A DNA stretch of 64,000 nt from Adlercreutzia sp. ZJ141 (GTDB lineage: Bacteria > Actinomycetota > Coriobacteriia > Coriobacteriales > Eggerthellaceae), in the NCBI RefSeq assembly GCF_011038965.1, contig NZ_JAAKEB010000004.1, positions 62,001 through 126,000 of the forward strand, written 5' to 3'. Shown here one piece after another: positions 32,938-44,898 of the stretch. Positions within the stretch are counted from its first letter, which is position 1. Every line of letters begins with the position of its first letter. A program made the translations under genes and the position numbers. Under the pieces are notes generated by a model, which was not told the origin of the DNA, searched no databases, and was given only the letters and a program-made list of their open reading frames with translations.

Positions 32938-33489
32938 TTAAACAACTCTCTTATACAGAATGGGTTCGTCGTATCCGAAAGTCTTTTTTCCTTTGACCTC
33001 CATACTCTCGCTGACCTCTAAGTAATCTTTGGAGAATCGTTCAAACAGAGTGAACTTTAGCGTAGGGGAAAACATGCTTGTACTGCCGCCTTCCCATACT
33101 CCGTTGCTTTCAACAAACAACGCCGGCGTGAATTTTTCGGATATTTTCAAGTCGTGATAATCAACCGATGTGAGTGCTTCATACGTAAACGTACTTTTCT
33201 TATAGCCATCAGGCAGTTCGTAAGATGTCAGTTGTATTCCAGCCTCTTCTTCGGTAAACAAAAACAAATGAGGTGAGGCGTGCGTATTTCCGTTCGCCGT
33301 ATAGTAGCTTTCCTCAACCATGAAAAGACCCTTGAAGTCCTTCGGCATATTCGTGATCTTTTCGTTGCAGATCGTATTGACATGCTCTGCGAAAGGGAAA
33401 TCGGCATGAGTTTGCTTCATTCTCTCAAACTGCTCAACGTTGTCGAAGTTACCCGTCAACAGAACCATAAACTCGTTCAATTTGCCCAT
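32938..33489 (-). CDS. unknown beta-rich protein in an operon with marR
   Basis: 183 residues, no signal peptide or membrane segment. The N-terminal pattern LNEFMVLLTGNFDNVEQFER, then FKGLFMVEESYY, recalls the CpcT/CpeT fold (short helix, GxFxNxxQ, then a barrel), but this is weak and no function is claimed. GGGAGGA precedes the ATG. Its start lies inside the 3' end of the MarR gene (41-base overlap), so it is very likely controlled by that regulator. The coding sequence is AT-rich compared with the core genes, suggesting transfer. Confidence 0.6.
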   Translation of the reverse strand: MGKLNEFMVLLTGNFDNVEQFERMKQTHADFPFAEHVNTICNEKITNMPKDFKGLFMVEESYYTANGNTHASPHLFLFTEEEAGIQLTSYELPDGYKKSTFTYEALTSVDYHDLKISEKFTPALFVESNGVWEGGSTSMFSPTLKFTLFERFSKDYLEVSESMEVKGKKTFGYDEPILYKRVV

Positions 33490-33925
33490 GTTGCTTTCCT
33501 CCCTGTTTTTTATTGGTCTTGAGAACCAGATTCTTCATGAGGTCTAACAATTCCCGGCGGCTGTCATCATCTATATCGGATAACACCAGTTCATCCCACG
33601 AATGAAAGAGATCACGACTCTCCTCAACTACGTTCATACCTCTTTTGGTCAAGCTTAAAACGTTGAATCTTCTGTCGTCGCTGTTCTTCCTTTGGGTAAC
33701 GAGTTCCTTGTCTATGAGCTTCGCCATAATACGGTGTAGTTGTCCTGCGTCTAATGTAAGGTACTCTGCAATTTCTGTGGAAGAGCAGTTGTTATTCTTG
33801 CTTATATAAATCAGGACGAACAGCTGACCGTACGTTATTCCAAGGTCGCGCATTCTTTCGGTGCAATACGACACAAAGTGTTTTCGCAGTAGTGCGATAT
33901 AAAAAGCAAACGATGTATGTTCCAC
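33449..33925 (-). CDS. MarR-family transcriptional regulator
   Basis: 158 residues with the MarR winged helix: LGITYGQLFVLIYIS, SSTEIAEYLTLDAGQLHRIM, LIDKELVTQRKNSDDRR and LSLTKRGMNVVEE. MarR proteins are dimeric repressors released by small ligands. GTG start at 33925 behind GGGGGTGA. Two 13-bp palindromes sit directly upstream. It overlaps and precedes the unknown gene at 32938-33489, so it probably controls both. Confidence 0.88.
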   Translation of the reverse strand: MEHTSFAFYIALLRKHFVSYCTERMRDLGITYGQLFVLIYISKNNNCSSTEIAEYLTLDAGQLHRIMAKLIDKELVTQRKNSDDRRFNVLSLTKRGMNVVEESRDLFHSWDELVLSDIDDDSRRELLDLMKNLVLKTNKKQGGKQHGQIERVYGSVDG

Positions 33926-33952: not shown

Positions 33953-33991
33953 TTGACAATGTCAATTATGACCTACATTTGACATTGTCAA
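33953..33991 (-). promoter_or_regulatory. marR promoter with two palindromic operators
   Basis: TTGACAATGTCAA (33953-33965) and TTGACATTGTCAA (33979-33991) are near-perfect palindromes centred 26 bp apart. The distal one supplies TTGACA as -35; 17 bp later is TAATTG. Dimer binding at both sites would cover the promoter. Confidence 0.78.
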
Positions 33992-34451
33992 GTTACGAGT
34001 GCCAAAGGGTTCACTCAATTGGCACTATATTGGTCCACGGGTCAGCTAGTGACAGGGGAGCAGTGAGGTAACACAAACGCTCTTTCAGTACACTATGCTG
34101 CAATGTGCCGCGTAGTGCCGTGGTGTGCCGCGCTGCGTTGCGCGTATCTATACAAGCTGCTACACGTTGTAAAGTGCTGCAAGTATCATATGGCGCTGCG
34201 TGTGTATGCATGCATTGTGATACGCTGCGTTCGTCCGTTTCTTGCTGCACACTGCTGAGCTGCTATGTTCAAGCTTAGCGATCTCTTGTCCTGAAAAATG
34301 CAGGATTGCTTGCAATAGGAACCGCGAAAGACATATTCAGGTACGGTTAGATATGTCGAACACCGTGCTGCCTGATTGGGTGTCTGACCGCGAAAGGTTT
34401 GGGCAGGTATGCTCAGGCAAAGAAAGCCTCGCTTTCAGCCACTTTTTCTAC
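33992..34451. other. gene-free stretch before the long inverted repeat
   Basis: Low-complexity GTGC/GCTGC-rich sequence around 34080-34250 with no supportable gene on either strand. It may be decayed coding DNA. Confidence 0.4.
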
Positions 34452-34704
34452 GAAATGCGCGATTGAGCAAAGTTAGCCGTGGCTTCGGGAACTTTTTTTA
34501 CGAAATGTACGATGTGATGGAGTCGGTAAAGCTCATCGAATCTTCAGAAAAAACAGCGGTCGTCTCTGACCAGGGAAAACGTAAGAGCAGTCTTAAGAAG
34601 AGAAGAGTAATGCTCGTTTCCTACCCACTTTTATCGCTTTAAATCGTACATTTCGTGGAAAAAGTTCCCGAAGCCACGGCTAACTTTGCTCAATCGCGCA
34701 TTTC
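34452..34704. mobile_element. 253-bp element with 62-bp inverted arms (MITE-like)
   Basis: Arms at 34452-34513 and 34643-34704 are reverse complements at 60 of 62 positions, around a 129-bp centre without a supportable gene. Each arm carries the word ACGAAATG or GAAATG plus YRCGAT at both of its ends, so the motif occurs four times. The transcript could fold into a very long hairpin on either strand. No transposase and no certain target duplication were found. Confidence 0.6.
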
Positions 34705-34812
34705 TCGAATTTTCTGACAGTTTGTGAGCAATGGACTGACGTGGAGATAAATGCTTGATGAGTATGGCAGAAGCTGGCCAATAGCGGCGGAAGACTTTGT
34801 TTTAGTAGCGTA

Positions 34813-44705: not shown

Positions 44706-44769
44706 GCCGTCAACTTTCCTGCTTTGTCCACCTTTCAAGCAAAGTGGTCAGAAAGGGGGAGTTGACGGC
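44706..44769. repeat. hairpin 1 between purL and feoAB
   Basis: GCCGTCAACT (44706-44715) is complementary to AGTTGACGGC (44760-44769), with further interrupted pairing inside (CTTTGTCCAC against AAAGTGGTCA). It shares the words AAAGTGGTCA and GTTGAC with the next hairpin. Confidence 0.65.
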
Positions 44770-44782
44770 GATTTAGTGTCTA

Positions 44783-44859
44783 AAAGTGGTCAAAACACAA
44801 GGGTTGACAGCGGATTTCAAGGAAAATGCCGCTGTCAACCCTTGTATTTTGGCCACTTT
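44783..44859. repeat. hairpin 2 between purL and feoAB, 31-bp arms
   Basis: Arms 44783-44813 and 44829-44859 are reverse complements with two mismatches and a 15-base loop. Located between convergent genes, it is a plausible bidirectional transcription stop, but it is far longer than needed and lacks a T run. Confidence 0.75.
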
Positions 44860-44898
44860 GCGAATTAGGCGCAAGGGGACATACTCTATGCGACGCTC

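Follow-up and report, generated by a model that had tools for sequence, protein, structure and literature searches.

What kind of structure is the long palindrome described here, and how have its two arms stayed so closely matched? A preliminary description had offered three readings, a MITE, a source of double-stranded RNA and a regulatory cruciform, for a site in the window, the whole 64,000-nucleotide stretch that was analysed (C37:62001–126000 of G000, a draft genome of 2.29 Mb). A repeat search of the window confirmed the near-perfect 62-bp arms at the positions listed in Table 1, with 60 of 62 positions (97%) complementary and a spacer of 129 nt; all other inverted repeats of the window are far shorter. 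The view that such symmetry exceeds chance was borne out, as the longest arm with at most two mismatches reached 17–21 nt when the window was simulated 12 times with a first-order Markov model, versus 62 nt in the window itself. The related words reported at both ends of each arm were also recovered: ACGAAATG occurs at 34450 and 34500 with inverted partners near 34649 and 34699, and each arm holds two such words (..ACGAAATGYRCGATT) 50 bp apart. The extent first given, 34452–34704, is right for the arms, but the true unit is slightly longer, at about 34438–34719. The G+C content of the element is 44%, versus 57% for the window. The open reading frames that cross the copies are unconserved readings of the repeat itself, and the element is non-coding.

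Table 1. Features of the palindrome and its left flank in the window (the + orientation of the element is the direction of the spacer)
Feature	Position	Strand	Remarks
Left flank module P	34271..34437	+	homologous to left flanks of C55:86318 and C57:31709
Extra partial 50-bp unit overlapping left end	34417..34463	+	74% to next unit; R1 match E 1.4e-9
Left outer extension, type A GCCACTTTTTCT	34438..34449	+	
Outer word, left ACGAAATGCGCGATT	34450..34464	+	
Left arm	34452..34513	+	60/62 complementary to right arm; aligned with 23 other arms
Inner word, left ACGAAATGTACGAT	34500..34514	+	50 bp from outer word
Spacer/loop	34514..34642	+	80–92% among nine copies matching by blastn; inverted in C57 copy
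4-bp mini-hairpin in loop GGTCGTCTCTGACC	34558..34571	.	T run after it on the - strand, terminator-like
Inner word, right arm	34642..34656	-	
Right arm	34643..34704	-	arm profile R1 match 34638–34718, E 4e-25
Outer word, right arm GAGAAATGCGCGATT	34692..34706	-	
Right outer extension, type B, TGTCAGAAAATTC read inward	34707..34719	-	

The distribution of the element was evaluated by blastn of 34440–34715 against G000, which returned 12 full-length copies with 66–100% identity on contigs C3, C4, C18, C23, C24, C37 (three), C55 (three) and C57, together with at least six single-end fragments (C4:8015, C24:2162, C3:31043, C17:12329, C11:38138 and C37:165338). Every copy is intergenic, apart from the open reading frames derived from the repeat, and the orientation toward neighbouring genes differs among copies. 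The possibility raised earlier, that this was the only copy and hence a local inverted duplication, was excluded by the 12 dispersed full copies and the several fragments. These copies, and the gap between the 62-nt arm and its simulated counterparts, leave chance or a purely local duplication with a probability close to nil.

The same search suggested for relatives had a different outcome, as blastn found no match in 59 of them; the genus is represented by G000 alone among the genomes compared. A profile of 83 arm positions was run against 137 further genomes of the family and gave a single weak match (E 5.6e-4), and no match to the element was found in the plasmids, phages and viral contigs searched. 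A 21-letter word pattern matched ten places among genome_contigs, scattered over unrelated phyla, and no mirrored arm was found in the surroundings of these ten; 31 scattered viral matches to a looser word were taken as chance. By these sequence comparisons, the repeat family is lineage-restricted. Literature searches on such repeats in the presumed host group returned no account of this family, which appears to be undescribed so far, its kind, the short dispersed bacterial palindrome, being already known.

Alignment of 24 arms defined the anatomy of the family: an outer word with the consensus ACGAAATGCGCGATTG[A/T], a linker (GCAAAGTTAGCC..CTTC) and, 50 bp inward of the outer word, an inner word (..CACTTTTTTYACGAAATGTACGATT). 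Beyond the arms, each end of a copy carries a stretch of approximately 12 bp that is either of form A (GCCACTTTTTTC) or of form B (a variant of GGCAAAAAAyTC), and the two ends of the window copy are unlike, with A on the left and B on the right. The other young copies likewise have terminal inverted repeats. A reading as an integron attC site was dismissed on sequence inspection, since the GTTRRRY-like core is in the wrong orientation.

The two words are among the best-conserved columns of the alignment. This conservation, the strictly intergenic location of the copies and the recurrence of the spacing (50 bp in G000 and about 51 bp in units of another genome, G143) would fit a protein-binding array, in which a nucleoid- or chromosome-organising protein binds GAAATGYRCG, repeated in both orientations at ~50-bp spacing, and the palindrome arises as a side effect. 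We regard this reading as very improbable, because only some tens of words occur per genome, no protein is known for them, and in young copies the linker shows almost the same conservation as the words.

We then compared the arms within and between copies. Arm identity was 0.87 within a copy and 0.80 between copies, a contrast that none of 10000 permutations equalled, and 92.7% of cells were paired in the full alignment. Changes on both sides of a pair were found for 23 pairs (12.5 in shuffles) and 49 cells (21.6 in shuffles); none of 500 shuffles reached these counts, a figure that is not a probability, as the shuffle control leaves relatedness in. Two arm flavours, ..CTTCGGGAAC/G.. and ..CTTCTGCCAC.., were distinguished among the 24 arms. 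Most young copies carry the same flavour on both arms, and the diverged copies on C18 and C3 carry one flavour per arm, the pattern expected if an arm is rewritten from its partner. The arms are homogenised within copies. Arm matching could also reflect a few founder elements with matched arms, although in that case the founders' own arms must have changed together.

Paired changes of this kind are also what a structured regulatory or processing RNA kept by pairing selection would produce, acting as an RNase III site, a transcript stabiliser or a bidirectional terminator at gene borders. The strong covariation is accompanied by a stable predicted fold (-145 kcal/mol as RNA and -86 kcal/mol as DNA, each with z -14), two small helices of the loop are largely preserved among copies, and a terminator-like site lies in the loop on the - strand. 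If transcribed, the element would form a very stable hairpin. To tell pairing kept in RNA from pairing kept in DNA, departures in the stem were counted after each copy had been oriented according to its loop, giving 35 G-U and 25 A-C (P=0.25), or 25 and 16 by columns (P=0.21), with no significant G-U excess that would indicate an RNA-strand preference among the stem mismatches. Selection on one RNA strand should produce an excess of G-U, and the roughly even split fits a DNA-level process. In addition, Rfam 15 gave no match in the window, a promoter consensus scan found none, terminator-like sites were at chance level (1 found, 1.1 expected), and the orientation to neighbouring genes varies. 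We therefore consider a selected RNA element unlikely. The CREE/NEMIS elements of Neisseria are known to be processed by RNase III (PMC2649163), and by analogy the window element might be processed in the same way. A regulatory cruciform is possible, and nothing that was found speaks for it.

Further evidence for events at the DNA level came from the spacer and its flanks. A left flank of ~200 bp is common, in the same direction, to the window copy and the copies at C55:86318 and C57:31709 (identities of 115/142 for window and C57, and 146/182 for C55:86318 and C57; the window–C57 score was 156, versus a shuffled maximum of 112.5). In all three copies, the left end is of form A and the right end is B-like. 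The C57 spacer matches those of the window and C55:86318 only as the reverse complement (103/120 and 100/120), with scores of 186 and 172, respectively, versus 64 and 60 in the direct orientation. In at least one copy, that of C57, the spacer is therefore inverted next to a flank of unchanged direction. Arm homogenisation and inversion of the spacer have both been reported as products of template switching between inverted repeats (PMC8604942), and we infer that template switching caused the matched arms and the inversion here, although RecA-type recombination between the arms would yield the same inversion.

The B ends of several copies run on into a second dispersed repeat, which also stands alone. 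Because of this junction and the shared left-flank module, the intergenic regions that hold copies are mosaics. The second repeat is intergenic, ~65 bp long (GTTACTGTTCACGGGTCAGCCAGTGGCAG..GCAGATGAAGCTGGC), and was seen at C11:38119, C57:91229 and C55:68763 (L035, L036 and L037); it is joined to palindrome B ends in several copies, in two cases its start directly follows the T run of an intrinsic terminator, and the window shows a partial resemblance to it at about 34033–34060. Other repeats were observed as well. At 44706–44861 of the window lie nested palindromes, with 31-nt arms that match at 94% and another two pairs at 72%, which share a unit like AAAGTGGTCA..GTTGACRGCG and look like another intergenic palindrome array. 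At 33953–33991, two 13-bp palindromes (TTGACAATGTCAA and TTGACATTGTCAA), 13 bp apart, lie just upstream of a MarR-family gene (33449–33925, - strand; Pfam), and they are probably the operator of this regulator. A 215-bp stretch is identical in C2:78318–78532 and C8:40832–41046 (L039 and L040), and its C2 copy adjoins a truncated DDE_Tnp_1 transposase; the similar word that it carries was taken as a chance resemblance to the element.

The MITE reading of the preliminary description was assessed against these data. In its favour are the size (the family measures about 255–275 bp, within the MITE range of 50–500 bp), the terminal inverted repeats and the dispersed, non-coding and intergenic copies; the features that would prove it, a target-site duplication and a transposase flanked by the arms, were sought in G000 but did not turn up. 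Inspection of the flanks, which had been proposed as a check, revealed no target duplication in 12 copies: none was present at a constant offset of 0–59 bp with k=4–9, beyond A/T runs. Target-site duplications can decay with age. No arm pair in G000 encloses a gene or a transposase. The single ends at C4:8015, C24:2162 and C3:31043 were considered as parts of an autonomous element and rejected, as no transposase is enclosed; they lie between what we take to be ordinary genes (serC/rluB and purB/trkA, named by ORF reading). A complete-looking ISL3-family IS with nearly perfect ends of ~46 bp (GGCCCTTCGCGGTTTTTAGTGGTTAGCACAGGGTGCCAGCTGTGG) was observed at C55:86740–88150 of G000 (L161), ~140 bp from the palindrome copy at C55:86318, and was rejected as the source because its 46-bp ends are unrelated to the arm.

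A classical MITE would be an internally deleted derivative of a DDE transposon, moved by cut and paste by a transposase that binds two ~26-bp ACGAAATG sites per end. Such an origin would account for the size, the near-perfect terminal repeats, the two repeated sites 50 bp apart in each arm, the AT-richness and the multi-copy intergenic distribution. It is made rather doubtful by the missing duplication at a constant offset, the unrelated ends of the neighbouring IS, the absence of a gene between any arm pair and the alternation of the ends between forms A and B. We infer that the element has transposed; some copies may stem from segmental duplication, as neighbouring copies share flank modules.

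We consider it probable that the locus belongs to an old, lineage-restricted family of non-coding intergenic palindromes, which was once mobile in a MITE-like manner and is now remodelled by DNA events between the arms. Its past dispersal was most likely that of a non-autonomous MITE-like element, and the copies would now be old and fixed. An arm would then be rewritten from its partner by template switching or arm-to-arm recombination, so that the two stay matched while the copies diverge, and the same events could flip the spacer. If read into RNA, the element is predicted to form a duplex of >60 bp, a possible substrate of RNase III or block to read-through. This explanation is weakened by the absence of a target-site duplication, of an autonomous relative and, with one genome of the genus, of an empty site. 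As a natural record, the dozen copies document how the arms of bacterial palindromes remain matched. Covariation counts alone confuse DNA-level homogenisation with selection for RNA structure, and double changes free of RNA-strand bias, combined with an inverted spacer, provide a comparative test between the two.

The weak profile match in the family suggested a possible wider class. It lies in G143, a genome of another genus, aligns over the whole arm and has words 51 bp apart. The pattern GGCATT-N8-GAAATGTA, with one mismatch allowed, occurred 13 times in G143 (1 for a control pattern) and four times in its congener G151 (0 for the control), while most other genomes had 0–2 sites, near the control level. 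The G143 sites partly form inverted pairs 95 bp apart, and many of them have an inverted partner that was rarely equalled in shuffles. Conversely, a profile built from the G143 sites identified two places only in 137 kb of G000, both of them arms of the element (E 0.01 and 0.017). Common descent with the G143 palindromes is likely, judging from these sequence matches. A comparable intergenic palindrome that contains a similar word (45-nt arms, 82% complementary) is present in G085, a genome of a third genus, but arm profile R1 gave no match to it. Loci L116–L129 (G143 and G151) and L090 (G085) mark the intergenic palindromes that contain GGCATT-N8-GAAATGTA, in many cases followed by another unit ~51 bp on. 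Tentatively, several genera of the family might share fast-evolving intergenic palindromes made of ~50-bp units with the word (G)GCA-N8-11-GAAATGYRCG, which would have diverged beyond blastn recognition between genera with word, spacing and arrangement kept, pointing to a recognising protein or enzyme. If the cross-genus link holds, it offers a lead to an unknown recognition protein.

Comparison with known systems places the element among several short bacterial repeats. Prokaryotic MITEs such as ERIC, QMITE and MITEAba12 are similarly 50–500 bp long, AT-rich, non-coding and intergenic, with terminal inverted repeats (PMC10969869), whereas no target-site duplication or parent transposon was found here. 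REP/BIME differ in the size and form of the unit. The CREE/NEMIS elements of Neisseria, likened by description, are also short non-coding intergenic palindromes with alternative ends that give like or unlike termini, no transposase of their own and a predicted RNase III hairpin (PMC2649163). However, they have a 26-bp repeat, a TA target duplication and about 100 or more copies, in contrast to the 62-bp arms with two internal words, the lack of a detected duplication and the about 12 copies in G000. The BOX, RUP and SPRITE repeats of Streptococcus pneumoniae, again likened by description, are lineage-limited, mosaic, strongly folding and intergenic, and are probably parasitic with little present-day movement (PMC3049150); BOX consists of modules, unlike the single long palindrome with a spacer described here. 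The template-switched inverted repeats of yeast and bacteria are short, have short spacers and lie in genes (PMC8604942), in contrast to the dispersed intergenic family with 62-bp arms and a 129-bp spacer, for which the mechanism is read from the sequences; the two have in common the homogenisation of the arms and the inversion of the spacer.
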